DNA from: Thermococcus sp. MAR1
GTDB taxonomy: Archaea > Methanobacteriota_B > Thermococci > Thermococcales > Thermococcaceae
Assembly: GCF_012027305.1 (NCBI RefSeq)
Contig: NZ_SNUF01000001.1
Span: 372,001 to 436,000 of the forward strand
DNA: 64,000 nt
Reading direction: 5' to 3'
In this document: one piece after another, positions 4,668 to 45,800 of the stretch
Layout: every line of letters starts with the position of its first letter
How positions within the stretch are numbered: position 1 is the first letter of the stretch
Notes under the pieces: generated by a model
Seen by the model: the letters and a program-made list of their open reading frames with translations, nothing else
Databases searched by the model: none
Told to the model about the DNA's origin: nothing
Program-made: the position numbers and the translations under genes

Positions 4668-5279
4668 TTGGCTGAAAAGCTAAAGGGAACGACTACGGTC
4701 GGCATTGTATGTAAGGACGGCGTCGTCCTAGCGGCGGACAGAAGGGCATCGCTCGGCAGCATGGTGCTTTCAGAGAACGTTACCAAGGTGTTCCAGATAG
4801 ACGACCACTTGGCCTTGGCCGGTGCGGGGAGTGTTGGAGACATACTCTCGCTCGTCAGGCTTCTGAGGGCCGAGGCCAAGCTGTACAGGGCGAAGGTTGG
4901 GTATGAAATGAGCGTGAAAGCCCTTGCTACGCTGACTTCTAACATCCTTCATGGCAGCAGGTTCATGCCGTACTTCGGATGGTTTCTCATAGCTGGCTAC
5001 GATGTGAAGCCCGGGCTGTACTCGATAGACATGGCCGGGGGCATTACCGAGGATAAGTTCACCGCCGCGGGCTCTGGAATGGAGTTCGCCTTCGCGGTTC
5101 TGGAGGATAGCTACACCGAGGACATTAAATTGGAAGAGGGCATAAAACTTGCCCTCCGGGCGATAAAAGCCGCCACAAGGCGTGATGTTTTCACCGGAGA
5201 TGGGATAACCCTCGTTACCGTGACAAAGGATGGCTACAGAGAGCTGAGCAAGGAGGAGATAGAGGCTCTTCTAAAGTGA
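4668..5279 (+). CDS. psmB: Proteasome beta subunit (catalytic)
   Basis: Catalytic subunit of the 20S proteasome, an N-terminal-nucleophile hydrolase. The frame gives 203 residues with a short propeptide (MAEKLKG) ending just before TTTVGIV, so autocleavage at Gly7-Thr8 exposes the nucleophile Thr8. The supporting active-site residues are present in [12 protein letters not shown] (Asp and the Lys/Arg position) and in the conserved AAGSGMEFA turn. The start is a TTG at 4668, placed by the GGGGTG upstream and by the expected propeptide length. Thermococcales usually have two beta subunits; which one this is was not resolved. FttA starts about ten bases downstream and is probably in the same operon, linking protein and RNA turnover. 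Confidence 0.95.
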
Positions 5280-5289
5280 GGTGGTGACT

Positions 5290-7236
5290 TTGATAAGGAG
5301 AGAAACTTTCGTTGATGACATATTACGGGACATAAAGGCCGTTATAAGTCAGATGGTTCCCAGGGAAGCCAGGATAACCGATGTTGAATTCGAGGGGCCG
5401 GAGCTGGTTATATACGTCAAGAACCCAGAGGCGATAATGCAGGACGGTGATTTAATACGAAACCTCGCCAAGGTTCTCAAGAAGCGCATCAGCGTTCGTC
5501 CGGATCCTGAGGTTCTTCTTCCCCCTGAAAAGGCCGAGGAGATGATAAAAGAACTCGTGCCCAAGGAGGCGGAGATAACCAACATAAGCTTTGACCCTTC
5601 CGTCGGAGAGGTCCTCATAGAGGCCAAGAAGCCCGGCCTCGTTATAGGAAAGAACGGCGAAACTCTGAGACTCATAACCCAGAGGGTCCACTGGGCCCCT
5701 AGGGTCATAAGGACCCCCCCTCTCCAGAGCCAGACCATCTACTCCATAAGGCAGATACTCCAGGCCGAGGCGAAGGACAGGAGGAAGTTCCTCAGACAGG
5801 TCGGGCGGAACATCTACCGCAAGCCCGAGCTGAAGAGTGAGTGGATTAGAATCACCGGCCTTGGAGGCTTCCGCGAGGTTGGAAGGAGCGCTCTCCTGGT
5901 TCAAACCAATGAAAGCTACGTCCTGGTCGATTTTGGTGTCAACATAGCCGCCCTGCGCGACCCCAAGAAGGCCTTTCCGCACTTCGAGGCGCCGGAGTTC
6001 AGGTACGTCCTCGATGCCGGTCTTCTTGACGCCATCATCATAACCCACGCTCACCTTGACCACAGCGGAATGCTACCGTACCTCTTCCGCTACAAGCTCT
6101 TCGACGGACCGATATACACCACTCCCCCGACCAGAGACCTGATGGTCCTCCTCCAGCAGGACTTCATCGAGATACAGCAGATGAACGGCGTTGAGCCGTT
6201 GTACCGCCCGAGGGACATCAAGGAGGTTATCAAGCATACAATAACCCTCGACTATGGAGAGGTTAGGGACATAGCCCCGGACATGAGGCTCACCCTCCAC
6301 AACGCCGGCCACATACTCGGTTCGTCTATAGTCCACCTCCACATAGGCAACGGCCTCCACAACATAGCCATAACCGGTGACTTCAAGTTCATCCCGACGA
6401 GGCTCTTCGAGCCTGCCGTCAGCAGGTTCCCGAGGCTTGAGACGCTGGTTATGGAGTCCACCTACGGCGGAAGCAACGACTACCAGATGCCCAGGGAGGA
6501 GGCGGAGAAGAGGCTCATAGAGGTGATTCACCAGACGATACGTAGGAAGGGCAAGGTTCTCATCCCGGCCATGGCCGTCGGCAGGGCGCAGGAGATAATG
6601 ATGGTCCTTGAGGAATACGCGAGAGTTGGCGGTATAGAGGTGCCCATATACCTCGACGGAATGATATGGGAGGCCACCGCCATACACACGGCTTATCCAG
6701 AGTACCTCAGCAGGCACCTCCGTGAGCAGATATTCCACGAGGGCTACAATCCGTTCCTAAACCCGATATTCAAGCCAGTCGCCAACAGCAGGGAGAGGCA
6801 GGACATCATCGACAGCGGCGAACCTGCGATAATCATAGCGACATCGGGCATGCTCGTTGGCGGACCGAGCGTCGAGTACTTCAAGCAGCTCGCCCCCGAC
6901 CCGAAGAACAGCATGATATTCGTCAGCTACCAGGCGGAGGGAACGCTTGGACGGCAGGTTCAGAGGGGCCTGAGAGAGATTCCACTCGTCGGAGAGGGTG
7001 GAAAGACCGAAGTGGTAAAGGTGAACATGGAGGTTCACACCATAGACGGCTTCTCCGGTCACGCCGACAGGAGGGAGCTCATCAGCTACATAGCCAGGCT
7101 GAGACCGAGGCCTGAGAGGGTGATAACCGTCCACGGAGAGCCCCACAAGTGTCTTGACCTTTCAACGAGCATCCACAAGAAGTTCGGTATCTCAACGCGC
7201 GCCCCCAACAACCTGGATGCAATAAGGCTCAAGTAA
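5290..7236 (+). CDS. fttA: Transcription termination factor FttA (aCPSF1), KH / beta-CASP metallo-beta-lactamase ribonuclease
   Basis: Archaeal homologue of CPSF73; it cleaves nascent RNA and terminates transcription with RNA polymerase. Domains in order: two N-terminal KH-type segments (about 1-140, with the GKNGE loop near 121-125), a metallo-beta-lactamase domain with the zinc motif HAHLDH (about 253-258), the beta-CASP insertion (about 375-560), and the C-terminal histidine segments GFSGHADR and VHGEPHK. The 648-residue length agrees with thermococcal FttA. TTG at 5290 is chosen because GAGGTG ends six bases before it and it gives MIRRETF; GTGs at 5281 and 5284 overlap that site. It follows psmB directly. 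Confidence 0.95.
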   Translation: MIRRETFVDDILRDIKAVISQMVPREARITDVEFEGPELVIYVKNPEAIMQDGDLIRNLAKVLKKRISVRPDPEVLLPPEKAEEMIKELVPKEAEITNISFDPSVGEVLIEAKKPGLVIGKNGETLRLITQRVHWAPRVIRTPPLQSQTIYSIRQILQAEAKDRRKFLRQVGRNIYRKPELKSEWIRITGLGGFREVGRSALLVQTNESYVLVDFGVNIAALRDPKKAFPHFEAPEFRYVLDAGLLDAIIITHAHLDHSGMLPYLFRYKLFDGPIYTTPPTRDLMVLLQQDFIEIQQMNGVEPLYRPRDIKEVIKHTITLDYGEVRDIAPDMRLTLHNAGHILGSSIVHLHIGNGLHNIAITGDFKFIPTRLFEPAVSRFPRLETLVMESTYGGSNDYQMPREEAEKRLIEVIHQTIRRKGKVLIPAMAVGRAQEIMMVLEEYARVGGIEVPIYLDGMIWEATAIHTAYPEYLSRHLREQIFHEGYNPFLNPIFKPVANSRERQDIIDSGEPAIIIATSGMLVGGPSVEYFKQLAPDPKNSMIFVSYQAEGTLGRQVQRGLREIPLVGEGGKTEVVKVNMEVHTIDGFSGHADRRELISYIARLRPRPERVITVHGEPHKCLDLSTSIHKKFGISTRAPNNLDAIRLK

Positions 7237-7252
7237 CCCTGGAGTGATGGGA

Positions 7253-8587
7253 ATGGAGGTTCGCTGCCCCTCCTGTGGCAGGCTCTACTCCTCCCTTATT
7301 CCTCCAACGTGCTCCTGTGGGGAGCCGCTTAGAATAACGTACGACTACGAATCCGTGGACGTTTCTGCCTGGAAAGGTAGAAAGCCAGGTGTCTGGAAGT
7401 ACCGGGAGCTTCTTCCAGATGTAAACCGTGTCATCAGTCTGAATGAGGGCGGAACGCCTCTTTTGAGGGCGAAACTCGGTGAAGAACTCGGGCTGAACGT
7501 CTTCATCAAGGACGAAACCAGGAATCCAACCGGTTCGTTCCGCGACAGGCTCATCACCGTGGCGGTCTCCTACGGCATTCCCCACGCAGAGAACGGCTTT
7601 GTTGTGGCCAGCAACGGAAACGCCGCCGCTTCCCTTTCGGCCTATGCAGCCCGGGCAGGAAAGCCTGCTTACACTGTCGTTCCAAAACTTGTCGAGCAGG
7701 GGAAGCTGAACCAGATAGTGGCCTTTGGTGCGAAGGTGATCCGCTACGGTGAGAGCGTTGATGAGGGCATAAGCTACGCGGAAGGATTGGCTGAGGGCAA
7801 GGGACTCTACAACGTCACCCCCGAGAGCAACCTCATTGGTCTGGAGGGGCAGAAAACGCTGGCCTTCGAGCTCTGGGAGGAGCTGAACCCTACTCACGTG
7901 GTGGTTCCGACCGGCAGCGGAAGCAACCTCTACAGCATCTACAAGGGGTTCGTTGAGCTCATGGAGATAGGTGCCATTGAGGAGATGCCCAGACTCATAG
8001 CGGTTCAGGCCGAGAAGTGTTCCCCCATAGCGAGTGAGGTTCTGGGCGTCGAGCCAAAGGCGGAACCTACAAAGGCGCTGGCGCTCTACGTGAAGAACCC
8101 CGTGATGAAGGAGCTGGCTTTGAAGGCCATAGGCGAGACCGACGGAACCGCAGTGATGGTCGGTGAGGATGAGCTCGACCTTGGACAGAGACTGCTTGCC
8201 GGCGAGGGAATCTTTGCGGAGTATGCCTCGGCAGTGATAGTTCCGGCCCTACTCAAGCTGGCCGAGGAGGGCTACTTTGAGAGGGACGACAGGATAGCGC
8301 TCATCGTGACCAGCTCCGGCCTCAAGGGCCACTACTCCGAGACCAGGGAGAAGTTCAGCATAGGTGGGACGAAGCTCGATATACTCAGACTCCTCGGCGA
8401 TAGAACCATGTACGGCTACGAGATATGGGAGGCCCTGGAGAAGCCGCTCAAGTACCAGGCAGTTTACCAGCACCTCCGTGAGCTCGAAAGCCTGGGCCTG
8501 ATAGGAGAATCCCACCGAAAGGGCAGGCGCGTCTACTACAGGCTGACGGATAAGGGCCGCAAGTTCCTGGAGACACTGTCCGGGTAA
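7253..8587 (+). CDS. Threonine-synthase-fold protein lacking the PLP lysine, fused to a PadR-type winged helix
   Basis: A 444-residue fusion. Residues 1-25 form a zinc-ribbon-like unit (Cys5, Cys8, Cys20, Cys22). Residues about 30-360 follow the fold-type II threonine synthase plan with NPTGSF at 91-96, SNGNAAAS, and the phosphate-binding loop PTGSGSN. The residue after NPTGSF is Arg97 (codon CGC) where threonine synthases have the PLP Schiff-base lysine of SFKDR. Residues about 365-440 match a PadR/MarR-like DNA-binding domain (LLGDRTMYGYEI, VYQHLRELESLGLI, RRVYYRLT). The protein is therefore more likely a regulator or ligand sensor than an enzyme. ATG 7253 has GGAGTG six bases upstream; GTG 7244 and ATG 7247 are alternatives. 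It sits between fttA and a membrane protein gene. Confidence 0.8.
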   Translation: MEVRCPSCGRLYSSLIPPTCSCGEPLRITYDYESVDVSAWKGRKPGVWKYRELLPDVNRVISLNEGGTPLLRAKLGEELGLNVFIKDETRNPTGSFRDRLITVAVSYGIPHAENGFVVASNGNAAASLSAYAARAGKPAYTVVPKLVEQGKLNQIVAFGAKVIRYGESVDEGISYAEGLAEGKGLYNVTPESNLIGLEGQKTLAFELWEELNPTHVVVPTGSGSNLYSIYKGFVELMEIGAIEEMPRLIAVQAEKCSPIASEVLGVEPKAEPTKALALYVKNPVMKELALKAIGETDGTAVMVGEDELDLGQRLLAGEGIFAEYASAVIVPALLKLAEEGYFERDDRIALIVTSSGLKGHYSETREKFSIGGTKLDILRLLGDRTMYGYEIWEALEKPLKYQAVYQHLRELESLGLIGESHRKGRRVYYRLTDKGRKFLETLSG

Positions 8588-8635
8588 CGGAAAGGTTTTA
8601 AAAGGTCTTTTTAAAGCTAAGCGTAGGTGAAGAAC

Positions 8636-8980
8636 GTGGAGCTGGCAATTGAACACAAGTTTTCACTCTCAGTTTACCTCTGGGGACTCATCTGTGGCCT
8701 GGTCAGCGGGGTGGCAGCCGCAAAGTTCCAGTATGGCTGGATGATAGGCATTGCCATGTTTCTGGTCATCGACAAGGTAGTCATGGCCCTCATAAAGGAG
8801 CTCCCCCCCGACATCGAGGAGGAGCGCCTGATACTCAGGAAGGCCTTCTTTGGTTGGTTCCTGTTCTGGCTGTACTTCACCATGCTCAGCTACACCCTGA
8901 TGGTCAGCTTCCAACCCCAGTTCTACTCAAACCAGAGCCTGCTGTATCAACTCACACAGAACGGAACGGTGATGGGGTGA
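8636..8980 (+). CDS. Small EMC6-like integral membrane protein
   Basis: A 114-residue protein with a soluble N-terminus and three hydrophobic segments (about 12-30, 33-52 and 78-102), separated by an acidic loop (LPPDIEEE). The arrangement of the first two helices resembles the archaeal EMC6-like membrane proteins thought to be related to the eukaryotic membrane insertase subunit; this is recognition by pattern only. GTG at 8636 is chosen because AGGTGA (8625-8630) lies five bases upstream; a GTG at 8627 overlaps it. A TATA-like TTTTAAAA lies near 8597. It is five bases from rpiA and probably co-transcribed with it, although no functional link is evident. Confidence 0.6.
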   Translation: MELAIEHKFSLSVYLWGLICGLVSGVAAAKFQYGWMIGIAMFLVIDKVVMALIKELPPDIEEERLILRKAFFGWFLFWLYFTMLSYTLMVSFQPQFYSNQSLLYQLTQNGTVMG

Positions 8981-8984
8981 GCCT

Positions 8985-9668
8985 ATGGAGGAATTCAAGA
9001 GGGCCGTCGCTAAGGAGGCGTTGAAGTTCATCGAGGACGACATGATAGTCGGCCTCGGCACGGGCTCCACTACCGCTTACTTCATCGAGTACCTTGGCAA
9101 GCTCATAATGGAAGGGGAGCTTGAGGACGTCTACGGTGTTCCCACATCCTACCAGGCTAGGCTTCTCGCCCTCGAGAACGGCGTTCCGGTAGTCGGCCTG
9201 GACGAGGTCGATGCGATAGACATAGCCGTTGACGGCGCCGACGAAGTTGACCCCCACCTGAACCTCATAAAGGGCCGCGGTGCCGCTTTGACAATGGAGA
9301 AGATAATCGAGTACCGGGCAGGAACTTTCCTCGTCCTCGTTGACGAGAGCAAGCTGGTCGAGAGGCTCGGCCAGAAGATGCCCGTTCCCATCGAGGTGAT
9401 TCCGGCGGCCTGGCGCGCCATAGCCGAGGAGATAGAGGTCTTCAACGCCACTGCTGAACTGAGGATGGCGAGCAAGAAGGACGGGCCGGTCGTTACCGAC
9501 AACGGCAACTTCATTCTCGACGCCAGGTTCCACCGCATAGACGACCCGCTCGACCTTGAGATAGAGCTCAACAACATCCCCGGCGTGGTGGAGAACGGCA
9601 TCTTTGCGGACATAGCCGACATAGTCCTCGTCGGCACGAGGGAAGGCGTCAAGAAGCTGGAGCGCTGA
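8985..9668 (+). CDS. rpiA: Ribose-5-phosphate isomerase A
   Basis: Interconverts ribose 5-phosphate and ribulose 5-phosphate; Thermococcales lack a full oxidative pentose pathway, so this feeds nucleotide synthesis from the ribulose monophosphate route. The 227-residue product has the family motifs in order: GLGTGSTT (phosphate loop, about 23-30), DGADEVD (about 80-86), KGRGAALTMEK (about 93-103, catalytic region), and DNGNFILD near 166. Length is typical. The ATG at 8985 follows GGGGTGA, which overlaps the stop of the preceding gene. A run of T (9671-9680, TTTTTCTTTT) immediately after the stop is a likely archaeal terminator. Confidence 0.97.
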   Translation: MEEFKRAVAKEALKFIEDDMIVGLGTGSTTAYFIEYLGKLIMEGELEDVYGVPTSYQARLLALENGVPVVGLDEVDAIDIAVDGADEVDPHLNLIKGRGAALTMEKIIEYRAGTFLVLVDESKLVERLGQKMPVPIEVIPAAWRAIAEEIEVFNATAELRMASKKDGPVVTDNGNFILDARFHRIDDPLDLEIELNNIPGVVENGIFADIADIVLVGTREGVKKLER

Positions 9669-11070: not shown

Positions 11071-12525
11071 TTAAGCCGTGGCCTTCCCGGGCTCGGTTTT
11101 TGATTTTTCTTCGATTATCCGTCTCATCCATGTGCCACGCAGGAACCAGGCGAGGGCAACTATTCCAGCTAAGAAGTTGCTCATTCCCATGCCGAAGAAT
11201 ACTCCCTTGCTCGTGAAGTCGAAGAGCCTCGCGAGAGGTATGGAGATTCCGAGGATTGTTATGGCCCCGATGTATCCGAAGGCGTAGCTGAGCGGAATCC
11301 TCAGCCCCCAGAGGCGGAATATTCCAAGGGCCATGCTCTTCTTGGTGTGGCCTGCCGAGCTGAAGGTTCTGTTCACGACTATGAAGATTCCGTTGAAGAA
11401 GGGCACCGAAATGAGGAAGTACTTCATAACTATCTCGCTCTCCTGGATGACGGCAGGGTCATTGAGGAACACGCGGAATATCTCGACGCGGAAGACCCCG
11501 ATTATCAGTATCGCAAGGCTCGCTATTGTGAAGTTTATGACCATAGTCCTCTCGGCTATTCTTTTTGCCCTTTCGTAGTTCTCCGCCCCGACGTTCTGTG
11601 CTATCATCGTTCCCATGGCCATGCTTATGCCGCGAGAGATGCTCGTGAGGAAGTTCACCAGCCTGGTGGTTATGACGTAGGCCGCGTAGGTGACGTCGCC
11701 GAAGCCGAAGATTATCCTAGTAAGGATGACGAAGCCGAAGCTGTTCGCGGACTGGCCGATGCTCGACGGCAGGCCAACCTTGAATATCTTCTTGTAGAAC
11801 TCAAAATCCGGCTTGAGGCTCTCAAGGCTCAGGCTCAGCCCAACCCTATCGGTGAAGAGAAGGTAGAGGCCTATGAAGGCTCCAACCGAGTTTGCAAAGA
11901 CCGTCGCTATTGCGGCCCCTGCAACTCCCAGCTTCGGGAAGCCCAGCCAGCCGAATATGAGTATCGGATCGAGGATTATGTTTATCGCCACCGTGAGAAG
12001 GGTTATCTTGACCGGTGTTTTCGTGTCCCCAGTTGCCCTCACGAGCGCTCCAAAGGCCATGAAGGTGAAGGAAAATGGGATGCCGAGGAATATTATCGTA
12101 GCGTATGTGAGAGAGTATGGATAGACGTTCTCGCTGACCTTCATGAAGTGCAGCGCATACGGTAGGAGGAGCGTTCCGATTATGGCAGTTGCCGTCGCGA
12201 AGAATAGCATGAGTGAGTAAAGGGCCCCAGCCGAGCGGTTGGCCTTCTTGTACTCTCCCGCCCCGATGTACTGCCCGACGAAGGCGAAACCGGCAGTAGT
12301 GAAGCCCATGCCCAGCGCCATGAGGGTTCCGATTATCGGCCAGGTAACGCCTGGAGCAGAAAGCGCTTCCCTCCCGAGTTTGCCTAACCAAAACGTGTCC
12401 GTGATGTTGTAGATAACCTGGACTAGGTTGTTAACGATAAGCGGGCCCGCCAGAACGAGGAGGGTTTTCTCTATGGGCCCGGTTAGTATCTCTTCGCGCA
12501 TCTTCCCGATTTTCTCGCTCTTCAT
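11071..12525 (-). CDS. MATE family multidrug/cation exporter (second of a tandem pair)
   Basis: A twelve-helix membrane exporter of the MATE/NorM family, which expels organic cations in exchange for Na+ or H+. The 484 residues show two similar six-helix halves; the first contains [20 protein letters not shown], the typical MATE helix-1/2 signature. It is clearly paralogous to the neighbour at 12565-13965 along its full length, indicating duplication. The ATG at 12525 is preferred; a TTG at 12531 is possible. A TATA-like element (12553-12561, minus strand) places transcription start within a few bases of the ATG, so the mRNA may be leaderless. Substrate unknown. Confidence 0.9.
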
Positions 12526-12552
12526 GTGCAATCAGACCGCAATCGAAACGGT

Positions 12553-12564: not shown

Positions 12565-13965
12565 TTATGATGCGCTCGCCGATTCCTCGATTATCCTTTC
12601 CATCCAGCTCCCGGTCAGGAACCAGGCGAGAGCAACAACCGCGCCGAGAACGTTGCTCAGACCCATCCCCAGCCACATTCCGGCGGTGTCCCTCACGAGG
12701 ATTCCGAGGCCGTAGCTGAGGGGAAGCCTTAACCCCCAGAGGCGGAGCATGCTGAGGAGCATGCTCTTCTTGGTGTGGCCGGAGCTCTGGAAGACATTGT
12801 TTACAGCGGAGAATATGCCGAAGAAAGGCAGCGATGCGGAGAAGTACTTAACGACCTTAGCGCTCTCGGCTATTATCGCCGGGTCGTTGATGAAAAAGCT
12901 GAATATCTCCACGCGGAAGAAGGCGAAGAGGAGCGTCCCGACGCTCAGGATGGCAAAGTTTATCGCCATCGTCTTCTCGGCTATGGTCTTGGCCCTCTCG
13001 TAGAGCTTTGCCCCAACGGTCTGACCCACCATTGTCCCCATCGCCATGCTCATGCCGTCCGAGAAGGCGAACATGAAGTTGGTGAGCCTGTTGGTTATGG
13101 AGTAGGTCGCGAAGGCCACATCGGCCTCGCCGAACTGACCGCCGAGGGTGAAGATTATCCTCGTGAGTATGACGAAGCCGAGGGCTGTGGTTGACGAACC
13201 AACGCTTGAGGGTATGCCAACGCGGAAGATGCGCTTGTAGAATGGCCAGTCTGGCTTCAGGCCTTCCACCGTGAGGTGTATCCCGACCTTCCCCCTGAAG
13301 AGGAGGTATCCGCCGACGAGCGAGCCGAGGCTGTTGGAGAACATCGTGGCTACCGCGGCACCGACGACTCCAAGTTCCGGAAACGGCCCCCAGCCGAATA
13401 TCAGGAAGGGGTCCAGGATCAGATTGAGAAGCACGGTGGCTATGTTTATCTTAACCGGTGTTTTGGTGTCGCCTATAGCCCTCAGGAGGAAGTTGAAGGC
13501 GAAGAGCGTGAAGGCGAAGGGTATCCCGGCGAAGATGACGCGGGTGTAGTTGAGTGCGTAGGGATAGACCGTATCGCTAACGTTCATGAACCCGAGGAGG
13601 TACGGGGCGGAGAGGACACCGAATATTCCAACCCCGAGGGCAAAGAACATCATAAGAGAGTAGAGCGCTCCCGCGGCGCGGTTTGCCTTCTCGTACTCCC
13701 TTGCACCGACGTACTGGCTGACGAAGGCGAAGCCTGCCGTTGCAAAGCCCATCCCTATGGCCATGAAGAACCACACCAGGGGCCACGCCGTCCCCGGTGC
13801 CGCCAGCTCCTCCCTTCCGAGCTTTCCAAGCCAGAACGTGTCGGTGAGGTTGTAAAGAACCTGAACGAGCTGGTTTACGATTAGAGGATAGGCTAGCACG
13901 ATGAGGGTCCTGACTATAGGCCCGCTGATGATCTGCTCCCGCATCGCCTCTACTTCACGCCTCAT
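12565..13965 (-). CDS. MATE family multidrug/cation exporter (first of a tandem pair)
   Basis: A 466-residue MATE/NorM-type exporter with twelve predicted helices, matching the paralogue at 11071-12525 in the N-terminal signature ([21 protein letters not shown]) and in the mid-protein segment VKINIATVLLNLILDPFLIFGWGPFPELGVVGAA-type region (near residues 170-200). ATG 13965 is used; an internal ATG at 13944 with GAGG upstream is an alternative. A TATA-like TTTTTATA on the minus strand near 13990 lies about 25 bases before 13965, so the transcript is probably leaderless, as for the paralogue. The substrate is unknown. Confidence 0.9.
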   Translation of the reverse strand: MRREVEAMREQIISGPIVRTLIVLAYPLIVNQLVQVLYNLTDTFWLGKLGREELAAPGTAWPLVWFFMAIGMGFATAGFAFVSQYVGAREYEKANRAAGALYSLMMFFALGVGIFGVLSAPYLLGFMNVSDTVYPYALNYTRVIFAGIPFAFTLFAFNFLLRAIGDTKTPVKINIATVLLNLILDPFLIFGWGPFPELGVVGAAVATMFSNSLGSLVGGYLLFRGKVGIHLTVEGLKPDWPFYKRIFRVGIPSSVGSSTTALGFVILTRIIFTLGGQFGEADVAFATYSITNRLTNFMFAFSDGMSMAMGTMVGQTVGAKLYERAKTIAEKTMAINFAILSVGTLLFAFFRVEIFSFFINDPAIIAESAKVVKYFSASLPFFGIFSAVNNVFQSSGHTKKSMLLSMLRLWGLRLPLSYGLGILVRDTAGMWLGMGLSNVLGAVVALAWFLTGSWMERIIEESASAS

Positions 13966-45483: not shown

Positions 45484-45800
45484 ACTGGGATACCCTCCCT
45501 AACGGCATAGTAGTATATGTACTCCTTAGAGTCCCTAAGCCTTTCAAGCTCCTCCTTGGATACAACGAGGATGTCCATGGCTAGGCCCTTCTTCGCAAGT
45601 CTTTTCCTTATTTCCCCGGTAAGATGCACTCTTTTTCTCCATTTCACTTGGTTCTCCGTGACGAGCAGAATGTCCCAGTCGCTGCCTTCTCTGGAGGTGC
45701 CCTTGGCCCTCGACCCAAAGAGTATTATCTCAACTACATTAACTCCCTGTTCCCTGCAGACGTTGATTACTGTGTCATGAATCAGCTTTCGCACTTCCAT
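45480..45800 (-). CDS. MNT-type nucleotidyltransferase (second antitoxin-like protein)
   Basis: A 106-residue minimal nucleotidyltransferase. The catalytic motif EIILFGSRAKGTSREGSDWDILLV (about 24-47) has GSRAKG and the DxD pair (DWD). ATG 45800 follows GGTGA; ATG 45812 overlaps the site. It pairs with the HEPN gene downstream and forms the second MNT-HEPN unit inside the hyp cluster. Confidence 0.9.
   Translation of the reverse strand: MEVRKLIHDTVINVCREQGVNVVEIILFGSRAKGTSREGSDWDILLVTENQVKWRKRVHLTGEIRKRLAKKGLAMDILVVSKEELERLRDSKEYIYYYAVREGIPV

Follow-up and report, generated by a model that had tools for sequence, protein, structure and literature searches.

What does a protein do that has the fold of threonine synthase (ThrC), lacks the lysine with which that enzyme forms its Schiff base to PLP, and ends in a winged helix? 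The question is raised by an uninterrupted reading frame of 444 aa at positions 7253–8587 of the plus strand of the window, the 64,000-nt stretch of Thermococcus sp. MAR1 DNA analysed here, which has Thermococcus MAGs as its closest kin. Its start is a predicted one, since in-frame starts are also present upstream (GTG at 7244 and ATG at 7247). A preliminary description, made from the sequence alone, had reported a threonine-synthase fold with a C-terminal PadR domain, an arginine encoded by CGC in place of the PLP lysine at residue 97, and a retained phosphate loop PTGSGSN. Pfam recovers both domains, and the arginine codon and the loop are where they were said to be (Table 1). To these features we add a zinc-ribbon-like N-terminus, absent from that description, in which C5, C8 and C20 are invariant, and C22 is nearly so, across our alignment A1.

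Table 1. Features of the fused gene and its neighbours (window positions)
Feature	Positions	Strand	Details
Fused gene (candidate regulator)	7253..8587	+	444 aa; threonine-synthase-like (fold type II) domain + PadR winged helix; PRK05638/NF004170 family
Zinc-ribbon-like N-terminus, C5-x2-C8 ... C20-x-C22	7265..7321	+	From sequence; also in the archaeal ThrC paralogues of the same genome
PALP (fold type II PLP) domain, residues 61–353	7433..8311	+	Pfam PALP, E=8e-66; proposed PLP-sensing domain
Arg97 at the Schiff-base Lys position, codon CGC	7541..7543	+	Motif NPTGSFRDR
Asn123, kept; aligned to the Asn of the ThrC S-T-G-N loop	7619..7621	+	No substitution in 69 fused proteins or any ThrC compared
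PLP phosphate loop P219-T-G-S-G-S-N225	7907..7927	+	Glycines G221 and G223 kept
Thr353, kept; aligned to a ThrC Thr	8309..8311	+	Thr in 56/63 main-clade and 6/6 sister-clade proteins
PadR-like winged helix-turn-helix, residues 377–440	8381..8572	+	Pfam PadR, E=1.5e-10; 41.3 bits vs cut-off 27
Proteasome beta subunit (psmB; named by sequence recognition)	4668..5279	+	Upstream; conserved Thermococcaceae gene string
KH / beta-CASP RNase, aCPSF1 type (named by sequence recognition)	5281..7236	+	Upstream; ends 16 bp before the fused gene
Small membrane protein	8627..8980	+	Downstream neighbour; no Pfam family reaches its cut-off; not an ECF S component
Ribose-5-phosphate isomerase, rpiA (named by sequence recognition)	8985..9668	+	Downstream neighbour

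The protein is a full-length member of NCBIfam NF004170 (PRK05638, 'threonine synthase'), a profile of 442 positions that includes the PadR part and is matched by residues 3–442 at 755 bits (cut-off, 421). With the thrC profile TIGR00260 it scores 143.7 bits, below the cut-off of 167.1, which some fused members from Thermoproteota exceed (e.g. 224 bits for the protein of locus L164). Threonine synthases are its nearest solved structures, both by sequence and by the fold of an AlphaFold2 model (mean pLDDT 75.6), and they are also the best Foldseek matches of that model, with TMt values of up to 0.79. The PadR domain was recovered again in the homologues of loci L164, L207, L195, L019 and L209. 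Like the PadR family, the protein has a PadR-type winged helix and, as described below, a palindromic candidate site; however, the PadR proteins in the PDB (e.g. 9qbc and 5dym) are of ~120 residues, whereas here the winged helix occupies the last 68 residues of a much longer, enzyme-like chain and does not form a separate small protein that carries a dimerisation helix of its own.

The gene, whole or partial, is found in 67 of the 94 Thermococcaceae genomes and in none of the other 27, and full-length fused relatives occur in about 56 of 398 Thermoproteota genomes; among the matches listed for 295 genomes of the haloarchaeal phylum, none passes the cut-off or covers the PadR part. In all 59 Thermococcaceae loci read (some of which overlap), the lysine position is occupied by arginine. 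In an alignment of 69 fused proteins, it holds R in 59, K in two, M in one and F in one of the 63 members of the main clade, and I in two, L in two, M in one and V in one of the six members of a sister clade (the fused genes of loci L204–L209, divergent from the main clade). This recurrence across the Thermococcaceae loci and the main clade rules out a sequencing slip or chance as the source of Arg97. In a tree of 90 sequences, one clade holds all fused proteins (SH-aLRT 97), with a single lysine loss at its base. The two lysine-bearing fused proteins (L195:3977-5386 and L203:3983-5392, motif NPTNSFKDR) are sisters nested among arginine-bearing ones and, because they lie inside a lysine-less clade, their lysine probably represents a reversal, judging by their placement in the tree; they may offer a natural test case. 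The idea that lysine loss and the PadR domain always go together thus holds for all but these two of about 70 proteins. Unfused ThrC homologues retain the lysine, the sole exception being a haloarchaeal protein with leucine; this change (NPTGTVLDRG; L021:4001-5143 of Halorubrum rubrum, and L101), with no PadR match, is apparently a separate loss.

Around the lost lysine, the PLP pocket is largely kept. N123 is retained in 69/69 fused proteins and, within the main clade, G221 in 62/63 and G223 in 63/63; T353, D98 and R99 are retained as well. From general knowledge of the fold, we take the asparagine aligned with N123 to be PLP-contacting in ThrC, and the threonine aligned with T353 to lie near the PLP pyridine nitrogen. 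An arginine conserved in ThrC, aligned with residue 196, is missing from the fused proteins. Such a pattern would fit a protein that has retained PLP binding and given up catalysis. Compared with ThrC, the protein thus shares the fold, the zinc-ribbon-like N-terminal part and the pocket residues, but differs in its replaced Schiff-base lysine, the lost arginine and the added PadR domain, and a separate ThrC is encoded in the same genome. Indeed, that genome carries two further ThrC-like genes, both with the lysine, and one of them (L215) passes the cut-off of the curated threonine synthase profile PRK08329 (565 vs 358 bits), so threonine synthesis does not need the fused gene.

These observations bear on whether the protein might still be a threonine-synthase-like enzyme that works with Arg97, another lysine or PMP and uses its winged helix in a side role. 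The database name of the family, the mostly conserved pocket and the lysine of two members would agree with this, but a single lysine loss that has persisted through R, M, F, L, I and V does not look like a catalytic requirement, and L215 already provides a protein above the threonine synthase cut-off. We therefore hold continued enzymatic activity to be very improbable, and the name 'threonine synthase' is unsupported by the sequence evidence here.

If the protein is a transcription factor, its neighbourhood should be considered next. In Thermococcaceae, the gene order is psmB, the aCPSF1-type gene, the fused gene, the small membrane protein gene and then usually rpiA. The aCPSF1-type gene and the fused gene are probably co-transcribed, given the 16-bp gap between them. 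A binding site directly upstream of position 7253, as the preliminary description envisaged, is not found in this short gap, and the palindrome discussed below lies elsewhere in this genome, on contig C2; within the window, an exact CAAG-N6-CTTG occurs only at 45545–45558, as expected by chance. Further along, on the minus strand, two adjacent genes recognized by sequence as MATE-type transporters (11071–12531 and 12565–13965) are probably a tandem duplication.

A more informative neighbour is found in the second phylum. In 40 of 61 Thermoproteota loci, the fused gene is adjoined, usually as the next gene, by a gene for an ECF S component of family PF07155 (matches of up to 1e-33), and in several loci genes for an ECF ATPase and a T-component-like protein come after that of the S component. 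In three of the sister-clade loci the S component is divergent to the fused gene, and near the lysine-bearing pair L195 and L203 none was found at either locus. Many Thermoproteota loci have an AIR-synthase/HypE-like gene after the S component; this gene (cluster c8, e.g. L160:6226-7239) is present in 17 loci. The B6 importers PdxU and PdxU2/HmpT belong to PF07155/COG4720 (PMC9997740), and the best solved relative of the archaeal S components is 4hzu_S, the HmpT/PdxU2 of Lactobacillus brevis, the substrate of which was identified as pyridoxamine (PMC4860826). Four of the six HmpT pocket residues (E/D41, Y120, N140 and Q143) are kept in all 38 archaeal S components aligned, and the other two are uniformly changed (H84 to K and Q87 to E). 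We infer that the cargo of these S components is probably vitamin B6; in Thermoproteota, the adjacency to the S component is what links the fused gene to B6.

The fold of the protein, being that of threonine synthase, also invites a different reading, namely that it regulates threonine biosynthesis: its ligand would be threonine, homoserine phosphate or some similar amino acid, either alone or together with PLP, and its target thrC. About nine Thermoproteota loci do have an ordinary, lysine-containing thrC in divergent orientation beside the fused gene (87 bp away in L168, for example), either in place of the S component or along with it, but the S component adjoins the gene far more often, the Thermococcaceae palindrome sits at pdxS and the S gene, and the ThrC arginine aligned with residue 196 is lost. 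This leaves the threonine reading with little probability, and control of thrC, whose product is itself PLP-dependent, could be an extra branch of a PLP regulon. The preliminary description had named threonine or a PLP derivative as a possible signal; its second suggestion agrees with the B6 neighbourhood and the palindromes, and its first has become less likely with L215 at hand as the other threonine synthase.

In Thermococcaceae, the fused gene adjoins neither pdxS, which NCBIfam identifies as the PLP synthase lyase subunit, nor the S gene, and the link there consequently rests on co-occurrence. The S component of our genome, at C2:48364-48984, was found from a Thermoproteota one at 42% identity; an aminotransferase-like gene (L213:3430-4776, also on C2; recognized by sequence and probably PLP-dependent) ends just before it, and this gene pair seems to recur in many Thermococcaceae. 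The S component is strongly present in 66 of the 67 genomes with the fused gene (the remaining one having a fragment) vs 12 of the 27 without it. As for pdxS, it is missing from 21 of the 94 genomes. Among genomes at least 90% complete, all 11 without pdxS have the S component and all six without the S component have pdxS, a complementarity that is consistent with B6 transport and is not proof of it, because chance alone would give only about one genome without either. Judging by its sequence relationships, the Thermococcaceae S component is probably a B6 importer.

The promoters of these two genes provide the second line of evidence. Our genome has AAGTTNNAACTT at just two sites, one of which, C2:48354, falls within the S-gene promoter at C2:48340-48390. 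When all 94 genomes were searched with AAGTTNNAACTTGA, the S-gene promoter was matched in most of the genomes that encode the fused protein and have any match, and a second place recurred, directly upstream of pdxS; other matches (L302, L304, L308 and L311–L315) lie in or beside unrelated genes and were treated as chance. The palindrome TTCAAG-N6-CTTGA stands directly downstream of the pdxS TATA box in Thermococcaceae, the pdxS promoters read in 54 genomes having TATATTCAAG-TTTTNN-CTTGA right after this box, and CAAGTT..AACTTG-type palindromes at the TATA box of the S gene are common to genomes with the fused gene and missing in those without it. In several Thermococcaceae (L298, L303, L306, L307 and L309), pdxS is immediately preceded, in the same orientation, by a gene recognized from its sequence as that of a Thi4-like thiazole synthase.

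With the palindrome scored as present when 7 or all 8 letters of CAAG-N6-CTTG matched, it was found at the pdxS promoter in 39 of 39 genomes with the fused gene vs 2 of 15 without it (Fisher 9e-11, treating genomes as independent, which they are not). The two exceptions are G052, a 73% complete assembly in which the fused gene may simply be missing, and G028, with a 7/8 match only. At the S promoter, the related form was present in 33/39 vs 1/11 (p=7e-6, again with related genomes counted as if independent, which they are not). Across the 39 pdxS promoters of genomes with the fused gene, CAAG and CTT are invariant, the TATA box lies immediately 5' of the palindrome in 38, and 33 have a second copy, 32 of them at a distance of 23–25 bp downstream and the last at 27 bp; in our genome, three overlapping matches fall within 42 bp before pdxS, the promoter of which is at C2:328200-328260. 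Genome-wide, TTCAAG-N6-CTTG has 17–29 matches per genome in close relatives, and the cluster at pdxS recurs in all six compared. Losses of the fused gene are clustered on the tree, and only four independent changes are usable; when these gains or losses were paired on a pdxS tree of 30 genomes, the palindrome followed the gene in three, showed no difference in one and opposed it in none. In most Thermoproteota loci, no shared palindrome precedes the fused gene; the exceptions are L207 and L209 of the sister clade, in which the S component is divergent and the intergenic region has well-placed palindromes of the same AAG-N6-CTT spacing.

Given that the Thermococcaceae evidence is one of co-occurrence with few independent changes, another transcription factor of the same distribution might read the palindrome, and the PRK05638 protein might be its fellow traveller, for example a PLP carrier or buffer. 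The protein has a winged helix of its own, however, it adjoins the S component in a second phylum, and the intergenic regions of L207 and L209 share the spacing of the palindrome, which makes such a bystander role improbable.

Taken together, we consider it highly probable that the fused protein is a repressor of transcription that responds to PLP and controls both the synthesis and the uptake of vitamin B6. The proposal that an enzyme fold had been turned into a metabolite-sensing transcription factor gains support from the gene neighbourhood and from an operator-like palindrome that tracks the gene at pdxS and the S gene. In the mechanism that we envisage, PLP would bind as a reversible ligand, without catalysis, in a pocket that is intact except for its lysine, and the PadR winged helix would, as a dimer, occupy the palindrome TTCAAG-N6-CTTGA. 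Sitting between the TATA box and the transcription start, the dimer would stop initiation at the pdxS and S-gene promoters, and it is this position of the putative operator that supports repression. Both the pocket and the regulon point to PLP as the effector and suggest that PLP favours DNA binding: when plentiful, it would act as a co-repressor and the promoters would be blocked, and they would open as PLP falls.

The closest parallel is with the bacterial MocR regulators PdxR, PdxW and PdxQ, in which a winged helix is likewise fused to a PLP-enzyme fold. Their regulon comprises pdxST and pdxU-type importer genes (PMC5320631), and the candidate sites described here are at pdxS and the PF07155 S gene. 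Nevertheless, MocR proteins combine an N-terminal GntR winged helix with a fold type I aminotransferase domain, whereas the archaeal protein, in which a Pfam search found no GntR match, combines a C-terminal PadR winged helix with a lysine-less fold type II domain. Moreover, several bacterial PdxR respond to PLP yet activate pdxST (PMC5320631), whereas the site position in Thermococcaceae points to repression. Considering that Archaea are stated to have no MocR proteins (PMC5320631), and that the winged helix, its position and the PLP fold all differ, we conclude that the protein is probably an independently evolved archaeal counterpart of MocR/PdxR, outside the MocR family. We found no paper on PRK05638 or on an archaeal PLP-sensing PadR protein (subscription journals being sparsely covered), and no description of how archaea control PLP in the literature searched. 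It is likely, if a little less so than the repressor role itself, that PRK05638 founds a class of PLP-sensing transcription factors based on fold type II enzymes, which arose once in Archaea, independently of MocR, by fusion of ThrC with PadR and loss of the catalytic lysine, and that it regulates B6 in Thermococcaceae and in many Thermoproteota, for which no such regulator had been known.

PLP is reactive and has to be kept scarce. On comparative evidence, the protein studied here is a dead enzyme turned gene switch, and, if this is true, heat-loving archaea control their B6 genes, something previously known only in Bacteria, where the control is built from a different fold. It would represent a second, independent route from PLP enzyme to PLP sensor, here by removal of the catalytic lysine. 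Metabolic models should then stop treating the many archaeal 'threonine synthases' of PRK05638 as enzymes, and the linkage to the regulator suggests a substrate for the archaeal ECF transporter. The finding supplies a regulator, a candidate site and two target genes, all of which can be tested in the genetically tractable Thermococcus.
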